Shown one piece after another: positions 13,461 through 21,837 of a DNA stretch of 50,258 nt. Origin of the DNA: Terrimonas ginsenosidimutans. Lineage in GTDB: Bacteria; Bacteroidota; Bacteroidia; Chitinophagales; Chitinophagaceae. How positions within the stretch are numbered: position 1 is the stretch's first letter; each line of letters opens with the position of its first letter. The position numbers and the translations under genes are program-made. The notes under the pieces are model-generated. The model was not told the DNA's origin. It searched no databases and saw only the letters and a list, made by a program, of their open reading frames with translations. The stretch is from assembly GCF_022012415.1 (NCBI RefSeq), contig NZ_JAKLTR010000029.1, positions 1 through 50,258 of the forward strand, written 5' to 3'.

Positions 13461-13513
13461 AAATTAAAGCGTGGGGCTATCGTTGATAAACGATAGCCCC
13501 ACGCTTTTAATTT
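13461..13513. terminator. Strong bidirectional hairpin terminator
   Basis: The arm 13461-13484 (AAATTAAAGCGTGGGGCTAT followed by CGTT) pairs with 13489-13513 around a GATA loop, with only one bulged base. A/T-rich flanks give a U-run on both strands. It lies between the convergent DUF4159 and desaturase genes and probably terminates both. Confidence 0.88.
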
Positions 13514-13518
13514 GTGTC

Positions 13519-13623
13519 GGTCAACGGTCAACGGTCAACGGTCAACGGTCAACGGTCAACGGTCAACGGTCAACGGTCAACGGTCAACGGTCAACGGTCA
13601 ACGGTCAACGGTCAACGGTCAAC
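13519..13623. repeat. Heptanucleotide tandem repeat, 15 exact copies of GGTCAAC
   Basis: The 105 bp run consists of exactly 15 copies of GGTCAAC with no mismatch. It begins 5 bp after the terminator hairpin and ends 5 bp beyond the desaturase stop codon. One inverted copy (GTTGACC) is at 13414-13420. Perfect short repeats are prone to slippage, so copy number is expected to vary between strains. Confidence 0.97.
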
Positions 13624-13628
13624 GGATC

Positions 13629-14654
13629 TCAGCTCAATTCTTCCGGCGCAGCCATATCCGCAGGCATGTGTGGTGCTTTGGCGGAACGTTTGCCACGTTT
13701 TTCACGCGCGGTGCGTGAGTAAACGGAGAGGCTTCCGTCAAACAGGAAGCGAAAGAGCAGACCCGTGTATGATGTGTGAAATCCTAATGTTGTATAATAG
13801 CTGCCAGCGATCTGTTTTACTTTTGGCAGTTTGTTCCAGGGAACGGAAGGGAAATCATGGTGCTCGTTGTGATAACCCACGTTGAGGTTGGTGACGTTCA
13901 ACGGGCCGTAATAACTTTTCGTTTCCTGTTCGCCGTGAGTAAGGAAATGCTCCTGGATCCATCTTGCACCAAGTGGGTGAAGACCTACCGAGAAGAAAAA
14001 ACTGGCAAGCAGGAATACTGCAGCTTTTGCTCCAAGAAAATAAATGATCGCAAACATGAATGCGGCTTGAACCAGCCAGTTGATCAACGTCCATGTGTCA
14101 AACAACTTGATCTCCTTCAGGCGCATGGGACGCAGCATCTGGAAGATCGGATAGAATAACAACCACACCGCTTTTCCGACAGGGGCATTATTGATCAACT
14201 TCGCTTCCCACCGGAATGGCATATCTGCATCGAGTTCTTCAACACCCTGGTATGCATGGTGCTTCATGTGATATTTTGCAAATGAAACGGAACTTGGAAA
14301 TACGTGCGGCAGATTGGCGATCATGCCAGCCCAGATGTTCGCGGTTTTGTTTTTAAAGATCAGGTTATGTGAAGCTTCGTGAATGCATACCCAGAGAGTG
14401 TGGCAAAAGAAAGCTCCTACGAAATAAGCAAGTACGATCGTCCAGATCCAGGACAGATCCCATCCAAGGGGAGAGACTCCGAAGGCAAGAGCGACCAGTA
14501 TTCCAACAGCAACCAGGATTACCAGGAAGGTATAAGGGTTACGCCCGATCAGTTGTCTGATCTCCGGGTGCTTGGTAATGATCTCTTTCGTTCGGGCCTT
14601 GTGCGGCTCCACCTCATCCGACCAACGGAAGGACGAAAATTTTTTACGGCTCAT
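13629..14654 (-). CDS. Fatty acid/sphingolipid desaturase, dihydroceramide delta-4 desaturase (DEGS1) type
   Basis: The 341-residue membrane desaturase carries three histidine boxes: HEASH (92-96), HMKHH (129-133) and HNEHH (262-266), which bind the di-iron centre. The N-terminal segment (FRWSDEVEPHKARTKEII through KHPEIRQLIG) matches the Lipid_DES domain seen in eukaryotic sphingolipid delta-4 desaturases. The order of boxes, ANLP, SYYGPLN, NVGYHNEHHDFP and the late PYSR-like SVYSR motif all parallel human DEGS1 as I recall it. Membrane segments lie near residues 43-60, 70-90, 160-175 and 190-222. The expected reaction introduces a trans double bond into the sphingoid base of dihydroceramide; the actual substrate is inference, and an acyl-lipid desaturase is the alternative. 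It is a single gene next to the heptamer repeat, with its own 5' region. Confidence 0.88.
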   Translation of the reverse strand: MSRKKFSSFRWSDEVEPHKARTKEIITKHPEIRQLIGRNPYTFLVILVAVGILVALAFGVSPLGWDLSWIWTIVLAYFVGAFFCHTLWVCIHEASHNLIFKNKTANIWAGMIANLPHVFPSSVSFAKYHMKHHAYQGVEELDADMPFRWEAKLINNAPVGKAVWLLFYPIFQMLRPMRLKEIKLFDTWTLINWLVQAAFMFAIIYFLGAKAAVFLLASFFFSVGLHPLGARWIQEHFLTHGEQETKSYYGPLNVTNLNVGYHNEHHDFPSVPWNKLPKVKQIAGSYYTTLGFHTSYTGLLFRFLFDGSLSVYSRTAREKRGKRSAKAPHMPADMAAPEELS

Positions 14655-15209: not shown

Positions 15210-17492
15210 TCAATTTGCTTTATCCCTGTTCTCCACAAATCCATTTTCTGCAACTTTTCCGGAGTCTTTAAAAGAATTCCCTTCCAGCAAGTGACGTGCG
15301 CGCACTATGTCTTTGTATCCTAAGACCACGCCCTGCGGGTTTGCATTTTTAAAAGTGTTCGAAATGACCTTTGTTTGCTGAACACCGGTGAGTGAGATCA
15401 GCGGCTGCGAACCTGGTGTTTTACAGGCCTCAATTGTGTTGTTTTCAAATATGAGTTTCGGCCCCATCGTGCTTTCATCGTTGCCTCCACGGTAAACATT
15501 CAGCAATACGCCATTGATGTTTTTTAATTGGTTCTGCCCGATCAAGATCTTCTCGGCATTGTAATAGCCTTTATCATCTTTCTCTTCTGCCATTACGATG
15601 ATATCTGCATTATTATCGGAGAAGCTGTTGCCCGCGAAGATCACACTATCCGCAACAGTTGATTTATGACTGAAGAAAATGCTTTCGCAACCACGCATCC
15701 TGTCAAATCCCTGAACGCCGGATGCCCGCATTTCTATGTTATAGTGGTTTGAAGGGCCGCTTGTATCACTGCAGATAAAACTTTTTGCTTTTACATTACT
15801 ACCTTCTGCCATGAGATTGTATAGCAGTAAATGGCCGCCACCATTTACCATGAAAACAGCGGGAATAGCCGGTGTTGAAAAACGGATCGTTGCTTTATTG
15901 CCATCGAATGTTACATGACTCTGGATCGTAAAAGGTCGATCCAGCATATATTCTTTTCCAGTGAGCTTTATTATTATCGGTTCCTTCCTTCCGATAGCAG
16001 CGTATACTTCTTCGGCAGAACTGCATTCTGCTACAGGTACTTGCATTCCTGTCCATCTGCCCTTTGCTGAGGCTCTCAGCCAGACCGGTCCGCTGGCCGT
16101 CACTGCATTTTGATACACCGACTGCAGCGTTCCTTTATTGCCAAATCCTACAGCCGCGGGAAGCTTATGACCTAAACGGTTGAGGGCCACTTTTTGAATT
16201 GAATCGGGCACAGCTGCACTTTTTTTGCTGATCTGTGCTGGTAATGGAGCTATATTATTGCTTGCAGCCTGAATGGCTGCTTTTACGAAACCTGCCGGCA
16301 GTGCCTGTGCAATAGCGCTGCTTGCAGTATTCGAACTGAAGGCGAAACCACTCATGTTATCGGACACACGATAGATGTTTGTGTCTTTTGTATTATAGAA
16401 AATATTGTTCGCGAAATAAACATTATCTGGCGGAAGGGTACGTTCTGCATCGCTGCCCTCACAAAAACTGGCGGCACTGCAATTGTAAAATGTATTGTTA
16501 GCGATCACAGCATCAGTCACCTGAACATATCGGTGCGCGGGGGAATTTGGTATTCCATTCATTACAGAAAGGGGCGAGCGGAAGTCTACACCTCGACAGG
16601 CAAAAAAGAAGTTGTTCACTACCCATTGTCCTTTGTTGATGACGCGAACGCCCCCAGTTCCATCTTTATAGTTGCCAAGGAAGATATTATTTTCAACGGT
16701 ATTATTGTCGCCGTGACGAAGTACTACGCCGCCCTGGCATTCCCGGAATAAGTTATTCTTCACGATATTTCCACCGGACTTGATCGACACGATCTCCGTT
16801 TCTCCATCACACTCTTTAAAATAATTGTCAGTGATGTTTGTGAATGAATTGAATTGGCAATGTTGCGACACACCTACACGGATGATCTCTCCAGAATTAG
16901 ATGCCAGCGGAGGACGGCCGTCGAAGAGGTTATTATCGATGGAGTGATGGTTCTCGCGGCTTCGTTCATCGTCCAGAATCACGGCGATCAGTACGCCCAT
17001 GTTTTTCTTGTTTCTGAAATAAGAGTGATCCAACCTGTTGTTTTTACCATAAAATGAGATCCAGTAATTCTCATTCATGCGCTTCACATTATTGAATTCA
17101 TTGATGGAGCATTCAGTGACGCGGCAATTATTTGCCAGCTGATCTTTGTTCAGCCTGAATTCAATTACAGCATTTGTTCCGGCAAATCCATTTAGAAATT
17201 GCAATCCTTTTATGATCAGGTATTGTCCTCCTATTTTAAGATTGGAATGCCCGGTGATCAATACCTGGCCCGGGGTCTGTGCTATGAAAGTGATAGGTTT
17301 TTCCTTGGTGCCTTTGCTTCCCAGTCTGAGCATGGCGTCTTTCCATTCTCCATTTGCAAGAATGATCACATCACCTGGTTTTGCATTTTTATCAGCCTGA
17401 TGAAGTTCAGTTACATTTTTCACAGTGATGGTACCGGCAAACAGCGAAAGGCCCATCAATAAAGCTGGGGTGAGTAGGAGCAATCGTTTCAT
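15210..17492 (-). CDS. PL6 family alginate lyase, two-domain beta-helix
   Basis: The 760-residue protein has a Sec signal peptide (first ~20 residues) and belongs to polysaccharide lyase family 6, whose members cleave alginate or dermatan sulfate by beta-elimination. The catalytic pair is Lys238 (IVSIKSGG) and Arg259 (GVVLRHGD), with the same 21-residue spacing as Lys220/Arg241 of AlyGC and Lys250/Arg271 of chondroitinase B. Its length fits a two-domain enzyme with two parallel beta-helices. Neighbouring PL17, KdgF and SDR genes point to alginate, probably poly- or oligo-guluronate. It starts 4 nt after the lacI stop and is co-transcribed with it. There is no lipobox, so it is probably periplasmic. 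Confidence 0.93.
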   Translation of the reverse strand: MKRLLLLTPALLMGLSLFAGTITVKNVTELHQADKNAKPGDVIILANGEWKDAMLRLGSKGTKEKPITFIAQTPGQVLITGHSNLKIGGQYLIIKGLQFLNGFAGTNAVIEFRLNKDQLANNCRVTECSINEFNNVKRMNENYWISFYGKNNRLDHSYFRNKKNMGVLIAVILDDERSRENHHSIDNNLFDGRPPLASNSGEIIRVGVSQHCQFNSFTNITDNYFKECDGETEIVSIKSGGNIVKNNLFRECQGGVVLRHGDNNTVENNIFLGNYKDGTGGVRVINKGQWVVNNFFFACRGVDFRSPLSVMNGIPNSPAHRYVQVTDAVIANNTFYNCSAASFCEGSDAERTLPPDNVYFANNIFYNTKDTNIYRVSDNMSGFAFSSNTASSAIAQALPAGFVKAAIQAASNNIAPLPAQISKKSAAVPDSIQKVALNRLGHKLPAAVGFGNKGTLQSVYQNAVTASGPVWLRASAKGRWTGMQVPVAECSSAEEVYAAIGRKEPIIIKLTGKEYMLDRPFTIQSHVTFDGNKATIRFSTPAIPAVFMVNGGGHLLLYNLMAEGSNVKAKSFICSDTSGPSNHYNIEMRASGVQGFDRMRGCESIFFSHKSTVADSVIFAGNSFSDNNADIIVMAEEKDDKGYYNAEKILIGQNQLKNINGVLLNVYRGGNDESTMGPKLIFENNTIEACKTPGSQPLISLTGVQQTKVISNTFKNANPQGVVLGYKDIVRARHLLEGNSFKDSGKVAENGFVENRDKAN

Positions 17493-17496
17493 AAGT

Positions 17497-18534
17497 TTAT
17501 TTTGATCGGGTGTTTTTGGGCTGGATCCTTAAGGATGATTCGCGTATATGAAGTTTGGGTTTCAGTGTTTCTTCCACATCGCTCATGTCGCCGTCATGAT
17601 GCATGCTTTCGATAAAGAGTTTGGCGGCAACTTTTCCGAGTTCGAAAGCCGGCTGATCCACACTGGAAATGCCAGGCGTTACGAGGCTGGTTATAGGTTC
17701 ATTATTAAAACCTACCAATCCGATGTCATGCGGCATCTTTAGTCCCCGTTCTTTGATAGCGAGCATCGCGCCGATCGCCATACGGTCACTAATGGTGAAA
17801 ATGGCATCGGGTCTTTTCTTCATGCTGAGCAGCTCCTGTGTTGCAATGAAAGCGTATTGCTGATTGAAATCACAATGAATGATCAGATCGGGATCCGGTT
17901 TGAGTTTGTATTTTTTCAACGCAGCGAGATAACCATCCATACGTTCATTGCTGATACCGAGATTTTTTGGACCGGCAAGAATGGCGATGCGTTTATAACC
18001 TTGTTCTACCAGGTGTTCTGTGGCCTGAAACCCTCCGTCGAAATTATCAAGCCGTACACGGGGAGCCATCAAAAAGGGTGTGACGCGGTCAAACACTACC
18101 ATTGGCATCTTTTTCTCCTGGATCTTCTTGAAATGGTCGAACACTTTTGTTTCACTGGATACGGAAATAATAAATCCATCTACAAGACTGTCCAGTAGGC
18201 GCCGGGTATTGACGATCTCTCTTCCGAACGACTCATTGCTCTGACAAACCATTACGGTGTAACCGGCTTCGAGTGCAACCTCATCAATACCTTTCACCAT
18301 TGACGCCATTACGTAATCCAGGTTGGGAACAATCACGCCGATATTATGTGTTTGCTTTTGTTTGAGGCTTAGAGCAAGCTTGTTTGGTTGATAATTGAGC
18401 TCTTCAGACAGCGCCATTACGGCTTTCCTGGTTTCGATGTTTACATCTGGAGCGTTGCGCATTGCACGTGATACAGTAGAGGTTGAAACGTTCAGCGTCC
18501 TCGCAATGTCTTTGATCGTTGCCGGTTTATCCAT
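17497..18534 (-). CDS. LacI-family transcriptional regulator of the alginate locus
   Basis: The 345-residue regulator has the LacI helix-turn-helix at residues 5-26 (TIKDIARTLNVSTSTVSRAM), the hinge helix with YQPNKLALSL, and a periplasmic-binding-protein-like sensor domain starting at IGVIVPNLDY. It is the first gene of the lacI-PL6 pair and diverges from the SDR-PL17-kdgF series, so it probably controls both directions. A likely effector is an alginate breakdown product such as DEH or KDG. A CCGG-centred palindrome at 18581-18612 is the best operator candidate. It starts at the ATG 18532-18534. Confidence 0.95.
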   Translation of the reverse strand: MDKPATIKDIARTLNVSTSTVSRAMRNAPDVNIETRKAVMALSEELNYQPNKLALSLKQKQTHNIGVIVPNLDYVMASMVKGIDEVALEAGYTVMVCQSNESFGREIVNTRRLLDSLVDGFIISVSSETKVFDHFKKIQEKKMPMVVFDRVTPFLMAPRVRLDNFDGGFQATEHLVEQGYKRIAILAGPKNLGISNERMDGYLAALKKYKLKPDPDLIIHCDFNQQYAFIATQELLSMKKRPDAIFTISDRMAIGAMLAIKERGLKMPHDIGLVGFNNEPITSLVTPGISSVDQPAFELGKVAAKLFIESMHHDGDMSDVEETLKPKLHIRESSLRIQPKNTRSK

Positions 18535-18861
18535 ATAGCAGGTATGAACGGTAAAGCTAATCGAAACTTCATTACGGAAATCCCGGTAGCGTTGCCGGTA
18601 ACGATGCCGGGATTGAAAAAATATAAAAATCGCGACCGATCTCGTTTCCGCTCTGATTTTTATCGCTAAATAGCCGTCTTTTTTTGAAATTTTCGAATAT
18701 GTATTCCCGGCACGTCTCCCTGTAATCGGCTTAATATTACATCCTGAAGTTTGCCATAAGGATCATTACACCAGCGAAGATCGGTTTGCTTTACCATTTA
18801 TGCGTTCCTGTTGACTCTCTTCATCTCTATCATTGATCAGATCATTTTTATAAAAACGTAT
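18535..18861. other. Divergent control region of the alginate locus
   Basis: This 327 bp space separates lacI and the SDR gene. The only strong element is the palindrome at 18581-18612. No clear TAnnTTTG promoter is visible on either strand. An in-frame ATG at 18811 could extend the SDR protein by 17 residues, but the extension is not family-like. Confidence 0.6.
18581..18612. promoter_or_regulatory. Candidate LacI operator palindrome
   Basis: The core CGTTGCCGGTAACG (18590-18603) is a near-perfect dyad centred on CCGG, and the symmetry extends outward to TCCCGG at 18581 and CCGGGA at 18607-18612. LacI-family operators typically have a central CG dyad like this. It lies 47 bp upstream of the lacI start and about 250 bp upstream of the SDR start. 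Confidence 0.6.
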
Positions 18862-19617
18862 ATGAACTCATTACAAGGAAAAGTTGCTATTGTAACAGGT
18901 GGTGCGAGAGATATCGGCCGCCAGACTTCTATCAAACTGGCTGCAGCAGGCGTGAAAGTGTGTGTCAATTATAACAGTAATCAACAGGCAGCTGAAGAAA
19001 CGTTGAACGCGATCAAACAGGCTGGCGGAACTGCTATCGCAGTGAAAGCAGATATGACAAAGTCAGCGGAAGTGTCTTCGCTGATCAATAATTGTGTAGC
19101 AGCGTTTGGGGAAAAGATCGACATTCTTGTGAATGTAGCTGGAGGGATCATGGGGCGTAAACCTTTGGCGGATCTCGATGAAGAGTTTTGGGACCTCGTC
19201 ATAGATGTAAACCTGAAATCCGCTTATCTCGCCGCGCGTGCTGCATTGCCGTATATGAGCACTGGCGGTGCGATCGTAAACTTCGCTTCACAGGCTGCGC
19301 GTGATGGCGGCGGCGGCGGAGCGATCGCATATGCTACTGCAAAAGGTGCGGTACTGACCCTTACACGCGGTCTCGCAAAAGAACTCGGGCCAAAAGGCAT
19401 TCGTGTGAATTGTGTTTCTCCGGGTATGATCAATACTGCATTTCATGATACGTTCACCAAACCAGAGATCAGGGCCAATGTTGCAAATGCCACACCATTA
19501 AAAAGGGAAGGCCAGGCTTCTGAAGTAGCCGATCTCGTTCTTTATCTTGCGAGCGACAATGCTTCCTTTATCAATGGAGAAAGTGTAGAGATCAACGGAG
19601 GTAGCTATTTTGCTTAA
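18862..19617 (+). CDS. SDR oxidoreductase, probable DEH reductase
   Basis: The 251-residue short-chain dehydrogenase has the cofactor motif TGGARDIGR (residues 12-20), NVAGG, and the catalytic Ser143-Tyr157-Lys161 set (YATAK). The C-terminal NGESVEINGG segment is classical. In alginate loci such enzymes reduce 4-deoxy-L-erythro-5-hexoseulose uronate (DEH) to 2-keto-3-deoxygluconate (KDG), which is the role assigned here from context. The start at 18862 is preferred over 18811 because residues beginning MNSLQGKVAIVTGG fit the family. PL17 follows after 21 bp. Confidence 0.88.
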   Translation: MNSLQGKVAIVTGGARDIGRQTSIKLAAAGVKVCVNYNSNQQAAEETLNAIKQAGGTAIAVKADMTKSAEVSSLINNCVAAFGEKIDILVNVAGGIMGRKPLADLDEEFWDLVIDVNLKSAYLAARAALPYMSTGGAIVNFASQAARDGGGGGAIAYATAKGAVLTLTRGLAKELGPKGIRVNCVSPGMINTAFHDTFTKPEIRANVANATPLKREGQASEVADLVLYLASDNASFINGESVEINGGSYFA

Positions 19618-19638
19618 TAAATCAGGTCAATTGCGATA

Positions 19639-21837
19639 ATGCTAAGGATACCGGTTATACTGCTTTTTTTGTTTTTGCTGACTGATGTACAGGCACAGCA
19701 TCCGCTTACTTTTTTTACAAAGGCAGAAGCCGCCAATGTAAAAAAAGAGCTGGACCGATATCCTCTGCTGCTGAAATCTTATAAAGACATCAAAATACAG
19801 GTAGATAAGCAGCTCGGAACTGATATCGATGTTCCCGTGCCCAAGGATCCGGCAGGCGGATACACGCATGACAGGCATAAAAGCAATTATATGCTGATGT
19901 TCAACAGCGGCATATTATATAATCTTACGGGTGATCTGCGTTATGCAGTACTTGTAAAAAGAATATTGCTGAAATATGCGCTGTTGAATCCAACGCTGAA
20001 AAAGCATCCGCAGGCAACAAGCAGTTCTCCCGGCCATATTTTCTGGCAGGCGTTGAATGATGCAAACTGGCTGGTCTATACCGGAATGGCCTATGATCTC
20101 GTGCAGAACAGCCTTTCTCCGGCAGAGCGAAAGACGATCGAAGACGGTGCGTTCAAACCAGAAGTTGATTTTATCACAAAAGATCTCAACAGTTGGTTCA
20201 ACCTGATCCATAATCATGGTGTATGGGCCTGTGCCGGAGTCGGCATTGTTGGCATCGCAACTGATAATAAAGAATACGTCGATATCGCACTGTATGGTAC
20301 AGCGAAGGATGGAAAGAGCGGCTTCGTTGCTCAGTTGGATGGACTCTTCTCTCCGGACGGGTATTATACCGAGGGTCCATATTATGCGCGGTATGCAATT
20401 CTTCCCTATTACATTTTCGCCAATGCGCTGCAGCACGCACGCCCTTCGCTGAAGATATTTGAACATCGTGGGCGGATATTATTAAAAGCATTGCAGGCGG
20501 CTTTACAGCAAACAAACACTGATGGGAGTTTCTTTCCTTTTAATGACGCGATAAAAGAAAAAGATTATTCAACCAGCGAGATGATCACCGCTGTTAATAT
20601 CGCCTGGACGCAATATGGTGCTGACCCGGGTTTGCTGGCAATCGCGAAAAATCAAAAACAGGTAATGCTGAATGGTGGCGGTGCTTCCATTGCCGCAGCA
20701 TTGACGGGAAAAAATGTTCCGTCTTATTATCCATATAAGTCAGTAGAATATGCGGACGGGGTAAAAGGTGATGAAGGAGGTATAGCATTGATAAGGTCCG
20801 GGAAAGAAAAAAAACTTACCACGCTTCTTTTCAAATATACCGCGCATGGTTTGTCACACGGGCATTTTGATAAACTCAATATCAGTTTATATGACCAGGG
20901 AAATGAGATCCTGAGTGATTATGGATCCGCCCGGTTTGTTGGCGTTGAGCAAAAATACGGCGGCCGCTATCTGCCCGAAAATGATAAATATGCCGCACAA
21001 ACAATAGCCCATAACACGGTTGTGGCAGACGAAACGAGTCATTTCAACGGAAGCGAAAAACAGGCGGAGAAGTTTCATGCAAACAAGCAGTTCAGTCATC
21101 TTGGAAATCCAGCAGTACAGGTCGTATCTGCTGATGCAGATAATGCTTACAGGGATGTTCGTTTGCAGAGGACTGTTTATATGCTTGGTCTGCCGGGTGA
21201 GAAAAAGTTAATGCTGGATGTATTTCATACTTATTCTAATAAAGTGCATCAGTATGATCTTCCGTTCCAGTATAAAGGTCAACTGATCTCTACATCTTTT
21301 AGATACCGGGCAGATCAAAACAATCTCCAACCTCTTGGATCAAGGAATGGATACGAATACTTGTGGAAAGAAGCGCAGGCGAGCATTGCGGATACGGTTG
21401 CCCAGTTCACGTTTCTGAACGGTCAAACTTACTACACGATCTCCACTCTTGTCAGTGATTCCGCCACACTATTTTTTACCAGAACCGGTGCGAATGATCC
21501 CGAATTCAACCTCCGCCGTGAGCCTGCCTTTATCGTTCGTCAGAACGGACAAAACAAAACCTTCATGAGCCTGCTTGAAATTCACGGAAAGATGGATCCG
21601 GTGATAGAGATCTCTTCACAGTCGTACCCATCTGTTACCCGGTTAAAGCTGATCCGTGATGATGCGGATTTTACAGTAGTACAAGCAGCGTACGGAGGTA
21701 AAGAATTGCTGATCGCTCAAAGCAATAAAGATTTTAAGGATACAGAACATACCATTAGCAATCAGGGAACAGACCTCACATGGAAAGGCCCTTACGCAGT
21801 ATGGTATGATCATAAACGGATAGGAGTGGAGAAGTGA
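19639..21837 (+). CDS. PL17 family exolytic oligoalginate lyase
   Basis: The 732-residue protein has a signal peptide (ending VQAQ), an N-terminal alpha/alpha-toroid (alginate-lyase-like) and a C-terminal heparinase II/III-like beta-sheet domain. The active-site pair Asn192-His193 is in IHNHGVWA, and the tyrosine-rich YYTEGPYYARY segment (242-252) contains the probable catalytic tyrosine, as in Alg17c. The zinc-site-like HGLSHGHFDKLN stretch starts near residue 403. PL17 enzymes release unsaturated monouronate from oligoalginate ends. The product feeds KdgF encoded 54 bp downstream. A periplasmic location is probable. Confidence 0.93.
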   Translation: MLRIPVILLFLFLLTDVQAQHPLTFFTKAEAANVKKELDRYPLLLKSYKDIKIQVDKQLGTDIDVPVPKDPAGGYTHDRHKSNYMLMFNSGILYNLTGDLRYAVLVKRILLKYALLNPTLKKHPQATSSSPGHIFWQALNDANWLVYTGMAYDLVQNSLSPAERKTIEDGAFKPEVDFITKDLNSWFNLIHNHGVWACAGVGIVGIATDNKEYVDIALYGTAKDGKSGFVAQLDGLFSPDGYYTEGPYYARYAILPYYIFANALQHARPSLKIFEHRGRILLKALQAALQQTNTDGSFFPFNDAIKEKDYSTSEMITAVNIAWTQYGADPGLLAIAKNQKQVMLNGGGASIAAALTGKNVPSYYPYKSVEYADGVKGDEGGIALIRSGKEKKLTTLLFKYTAHGLSHGHFDKLNISLYDQGNEILSDYGSARFVGVEQKYGGRYLPENDKYAAQTIAHNTVVADETSHFNGSEKQAEKFHANKQFSHLGNPAVQVVSADADNAYRDVRLQRTVYMLGLPGEKKLMLDVFHTYSNKVHQYDLPFQYKGQLISTSFRYRADQNNLQPLGSRNGYEYLWKEAQASIADTVAQFTFLNGQTYYTISTLVSDSATLFFTRTGANDPEFNLRREPAFIVRQNGQNKTFMSLLEIHGKMDPVIEISSQSYPSVTRLKLIRDDADFTVVQAAYGGKELLIAQSNKDFKDTEHTISNQGTDLTWKGPYAVWYDHKRIGVEK

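Follow-up and report, generated by a model that had tools for sequence, protein, structure and literature searches.

Contig NZ_JAKLTR010000029.1 of Terrimonas ginsenosidimutans encodes a membrane desaturase that a first-pass annotation of the 50,258-nucleotide stretch analyzed here (the window) had described as a bacterial homolog of the eukaryotic dihydroceramide delta-4 desaturase (DES). The question raised by this locus is whether a member of the Bacteroidota, whose sphingolipids are dihydroceramide-based according to excerpts of PMC9246714 and PMC10191378, carries an enzyme that would convert dihydroceramide to ceramide, and which genes would supply its substrate and use its product. We propose that the protein is a bacterial member of the DES/DEGS family and probably a delta-4 desaturase of dihydroceramide, feeding the synthesis of inositol-phosphoceramide. 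The family assignment and the pathway are well supported by sequence comparison; as to the chemistry, delta-4 desaturation is most likely and C4 hydroxylation possible.

The window protein and its relatives

The DES-family membrane desaturase gene (341 aa), defined by its open reading frame, translation, and Pfam matches, occupies positions 13629..14654 of the window, exactly as first annotated, on the minus strand, which had been left unstated. Pfam identifies an N-terminal Lipid_DES domain at residues 8-41 (14532..14633, minus strand; 50.9 bits against a curated cut-off of 23, E 1e-13), found at the same place in a scan of the phylum, and an FA_desaturase domain at residues 69-285 (92.4 bits against a cut-off of 29.7). 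Three histidine boxes with the spacing HX3H, HX2HH, and HX2HH are encoded on the same minus strand: HEASH (residues 92-96; 14367..14381), HMKHH (residues 129-133; 14256..14270), and HNEHH (residues 262-266; 13857-13871), the last contained in the core NVGYHNEHHDFP (residues 258-269; 13848..13883, minus strand). The histidines H92 and H96, H129, H132 and H133, and H262, H265 and H266 are invariant in both of our alignments, one of 13 proteins from several families of the phylum (13/13) and one of 28 nearer kin, window protein included (28/28). The Lipid_DES-like N terminus, the boxes, and the core reported in the first-pass annotation are thus all confirmed in the translation, and the curated domain scores together with the conservation exclude a chance match.

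No NCBIfam model reached its cut-off with this protein, and a PDB sequence search with the protein and its profile returned nothing at E <= 1. The structure predicted from the alignment of 28 proteins (mean pLDDT 79.3) has weak fold matches to a chain of 8xks (TM 0.55, the best), a chain of 8xqw (0.53), and FtAlkB (8sbb, 0.42), which are consistent with a membrane di-iron enzyme. We predict DES to be integral to the membrane and O2-dependent, with a di-iron center, the iron and the electron donor being presumed.

Lipid_DES occurs in 40 of the 395 phylum genomes scanned and is absent from all 14 control genomes. Within the family, Chitinophagaceae, 46 of 195 genomes match the window protein at E <= 0.001, 42 of them strongly (E < 1e-100) and four only weakly. 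Among the strong-match genomes (n=42, including the window's own), the DES of a genus-mate is 86% identical and that of the other 40 is 54-74% identical. A scan of genome contigs retrieved at least 579 relatives, the best 80 of which include proteins from Taibaiella, Mucilaginibacter, Pedobacter, Olivibacter, Chitinophaga, and Cyclobacteriaceae; a scan of viral contigs found no relative.

The GC content of the gene, 48.7%, gives no clear sign of recent transfer; equally long stretches of the window average 45.3% (sd 2.2). A 7-bp unit, CGGTCAA, is repeated in 15.4 perfect copies at 13518-13625, with three bases between the end of the repeat and the DES stop codon, and a palindrome of 19 pairs lies near this repeat at 13466-13507. 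On the other side, the genes at 15210-21837 encode a chondroitinase B-like protein, a LacI regulator, an SDR, and a protein resembling oligoalginate lyase that scores below its NCBIfam cut-off, and look like a polysaccharide utilization cluster. Judged by eye, the DES neighbors in the genus-mate (G468) resemble those of the window, with chondroitinase-like, LacI-like regulator, DUF4159-like, and AAA-like proteins.

We further compared the protein with four eukaryotic DES sequences, to which it is 39-43% identical, and with the three other FA_desaturase proteins of its own genome, to which it is 24-27% identical. Together with the Lipid_DES domain, these values bear out the proposed homology; the protein does not fall among ordinary acyl desaturases, and of the membrane desaturases compared the DES sequences lie nearest to it, the acyl set being the genome's three only and the outgroup branches saturated. 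In the tree, the protein falls within a 24-row bacterial clade that also includes L043 (= G447) and L085 (support 95/65 with the genome's three other desaturases as outgroup, 100 without them). The four eukaryotic sequences form a separate set, supported at 100/100, with L005 and L007 from another bacterial class, which are 42-51% identical to them. Judged by this tree, the window protein belongs to a separate bacterial DES subfamily. Every row nearest to it is bacterial, so that a recent acquisition from eukaryotes looks unlikely. With saturated outgroup branches and an unusable root, the tree supports neither the ancestral bacterial source nor the transfer suggested earlier. L005 and L007 (genomes G191 and G262) come from one family outside the class and are the nearest bacterial kin of eukaryotic DES found here.

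Inositol-sphingolipid genes in the genome and its relatives

Three proteins of the genome match TIGR01825 (BioF/Kbl family). The first is a serine palmitoyltransferase (SPT; NF047600, 740.9 bits against a curated cut-off of 640; 604 bits to the solved SPT 3a2b), the second is nearest to the solved cysteate fatty acyltransferase (CFAT) 28eh, at 590.7 bits, and to 7u7h, at 595.6 bits, and the third is a glycine C-acetyltransferase (694.6 bits against a cut-off of 493). With both SPT and CFAT encoded, both sphingolipids and sulfonolipids would be expected. SPT stands first in a run of 11 genes, all pointing the same way, at about 637966-649060 of contig C12, in the order SPT, GNAT, epimerase, MIPS, PgpA, GtrA, DUF5686, CDP-alcohol transferase, DUF4833, FA hydroxylase, and PAP2. 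Of the two genes that the first-pass annotation had proposed to look for, SPT is present, and directly after it come a GNAT, a candidate ceramide synthase of the bacterial kind, and an epimerase, a candidate for the corresponding reductase.

The run unites MIPS (566.4 bits to 7nwr), a PgpA-type phosphatase, a CDP-alcohol transferase, and an AUR1-like PAP2 enzyme (68.1 bits to the solved AUR1), with DES unlinked to it. The scanned part of the hydroxylase, cut at the locus end, scores 28.4 bits, just below the FA_hydroxylase cut-off of 31; over its full length, this copy shares 63% identity with the hydroxylase of a related lineage, L072, which scores 69.4 bits against that cut-off and 113.6 bits against the solved Scs7.

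In three related lineages, L072, L085, and G447 (L240), DES lies inside the run, in the order hydroxylase-DES-PAP2, with gaps of 1-45 bp. The cluster-borne DES proteins are 76-83% identical among themselves, so that the arrangement may be one ancestral event rather than three, and 68-71% identical to the window DES. What the cluster adds to the first-pass annotation is that close homologs of this DES sit within a complete set of genes for inositol-phosphoceramide. The contig L075, assigned to an Azovibrio MAG, nearly duplicates L072, with proteins 98-100% identical (DES 98%), and is probably mis-binned Bacteroidota DNA. In G447, the CDP-alcohol transferase and DUF4833 share one 445-aa open reading frame (L240:13861-15198), a possible hint that DUF4833 takes part in making inositol lipids.

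Most DES genes lie outside the cluster. In the window's own genome and in G253 and G261, the hydroxylase adjoins PAP2 without DES between them, and DES lies elsewhere; in the G261 run, neither an epimerase nor a PgpA was found by our queries. In G033, SPT, GNAT, and epimerase stand together with nothing else of the run in the stretch examined. Cluster genes occur near DES at three of the 100 loci whose flanks were longer (up to 10 kb) and at one of the 60 that had about 1.5 kb of flank, the two sets overlapping. Apart from DES itself, no gene family recurs in more than 13 of the 100 loci, and the recurrent neighbors (2-oxoacid dehydrogenase-like and thiolase-like, named by eye) look like lineage synteny.

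Co-occurrence with SPT and the likely reaction

Within the family, SPT exceeds its cut-off in 27 of 42 genomes with DES and in one of 28 without (Fisher p 1.7e-7), the latter being 20 listed without a match, four with weak matches, and four from the phylum scan, which is not a random draw. Taking one genome per genus, the counts are 17/27 and 1/27 (p 4.8e-6), with genera that are not mutually independent. In the phylum sample, strict SPT is found in 9/40 genomes with DES and 9/355 without. We tried and set aside co-occurrence of DES with any long-chain-base synthase across the phylum, which is uninformative: of the 395 genomes, 298 have an SPT-like enzyme (E <= 1e-125) and 139 have CFAT (23/40 with DES, 116/355 without). 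In other classes, a GNAT follows an SPT-like enzyme in all three DES-carrying genomes examined (G031, G236, and G191), which does not discriminate, as SPT-like enzymes are very common there. The placement of DES in the cluster in three lineages and its co-occurrence with SPT, both read from genome sequences, support the earlier suggestion of a ceramide-type desaturase; the mostly unclustered DES loci, the window's among them, and the 15 of 42 DES-carrying family genomes without SPT (three of them less than 90% complete) speak against it.

C4 hydroxylation is also possible for DES-family enzymes (DEGS2), and a DEGS2-like enzyme would yield phytoceramide, and hence inositol-phosphoceramides like those of plants and fungi, rather than delta-4 ceramide. 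Family and pathway context fit such an enzyme equally, and the Scs7-like hydroxylase next to it, with the AUR1-like enzyme, resembles the fungal set, in which the long-chain base is 4-hydroxylated. The third histidine box argues weakly the other way, reading HNEHH as in DEGS1, against HVEHH in DEGS2. We regard the C4-hydroxylase as unlikely.

Less likely still, some members of the family, possibly including the window protein, could act on the N-acylated capnine of sulfonolipids, a substrate unlike ceramide at C1. The window's genome has the CFAT described above, and in the class, within the phylum sample, six of 15 DES-carrying genomes lack SPT even at E <= 1e-125, all six having CFAT; their GNAT matches are 25-29% identical only. 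However, nearly all genomes sampled from the class carry CFAT (91 of 98; the seven without it have SPT), so its presence says little. DES moreover tracks SPT in the family and lies within the SPT cluster in three lineages, and a CFAT-level match occurs near DES in none of 100 loci. Unless an unrecognized SPT exists, the SPT-lacking genomes indicate that dihydroceramide is not the substrate everywhere; in them, either DES would act on sulfonolipids or something else, or such an SPT exists. The six genomes with DES and CFAT and no recognizable SPT (G146, G150, G249, G371, G387, and G391) are candidates for unsaturated sulfonolipids.

An ordinary acyl-lipid desaturase that tunes membrane fluidity and is DES-like in appearance only would share the FA_desaturase domain and suit the absence of sphingolipid neighbors at most DES loci, but is very improbable given the Lipid_DES domain, the low identity to the genome's three other desaturases, and the placement of close homologs in a sphingolipid cluster.

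On the favored reading, dihydroceramide delta-4 desaturation, dihydroceramide would come from the SPT, GNAT, and epimerase genes, which lie apart from DES in this genome, DES would remove hydrogens at C4-C5 of its long-chain base, and the AUR1-like PAP2 enzyme would convert the product to inositol-phosphoceramide; substrate, regiochemistry, and final lipid are what we infer. More tentatively, we suggest that some Bacteroidota might make a eukaryote-like inositol-phosphoceramide, its base desaturated (or 4-hydroxylated) and its fatty acid probably hydroxylated, from one 12-gene cluster with a bacterial DES between the Scs7-like hydroxylase and the AUR1-like synthase, that a distinct DES lineage of bacteria from outside the class might be the nearest bacterial kin found of the eukaryotic enzyme, and that in SPT-lacking carriers the DES family would act on sulfonolipids. 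A bacterial delta-4 desaturase placed in this pathway would mean that bacteria can be a source of true ceramides and of fungal- or plant-like inositol-phosphoceramides, which bears on bacteria-host signaling and on the lipidomic assignment of unsaturated sphingoid bases. It would also make it feasible to test where eukaryotic DES came from, and the compact cluster is available to experimenters for expression.

Comparison with known systems

Among the papers listed, judged by title or the start of the abstract, with few subscription papers covered, none concerns a bacterial dihydroceramide desaturase. The window protein has in common with the eukaryotic delta-4 desaturases (DEGS1/DES1, fly ifc, and plant DES) the combination of Lipid_DES and FA_desaturase, the three histidine boxes, and the GYHNEHHDFP core. 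Its subfamily differs from them in the sequence FPS-x-PWN after the third box, invariant in 28/28 aligned bacterial proteins, where the eukaryotic DES compared here have IPG or VPG.

Within the Bacteroidota, the closest described system is the Bacteroides thetaiotaomicron route to phosphoinositol dihydroceramide, characterized by Heaver et al. (2022; PMC9246714) with genes of the same kinds, as far as excerpts of that paper describe them; the word desaturase does not occur in its main text. Matched by family name to those excerpts, the MIPS, PgpA-type phosphatase, GtrA, CDP-alcohol transferase, and AUR1-like enzyme of BT_1522-BT_1526 are also found in the Terrimonas run, which additionally has SPT, GNAT, epimerase, DUF5686, DUF4833, and the hydroxylase and, in some relatives, DES. 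Deletion of the GtrA gene from the B. thetaiotaomicron cluster caused no change, according to the same excerpts. The contiguous SPT, GNAT, and NAD epimerase of Terrimonas likewise correspond in kind to the bacterial SPT-bCerS-CerR route. In excerpts of PMC11334938, the SPT, bCerS, and CerR genes of sphingolipid-producing Bacteroidota are described as not close together; unlike in that account, the Terrimonas SPT, GNAT, and epimerase genes are adjacent.
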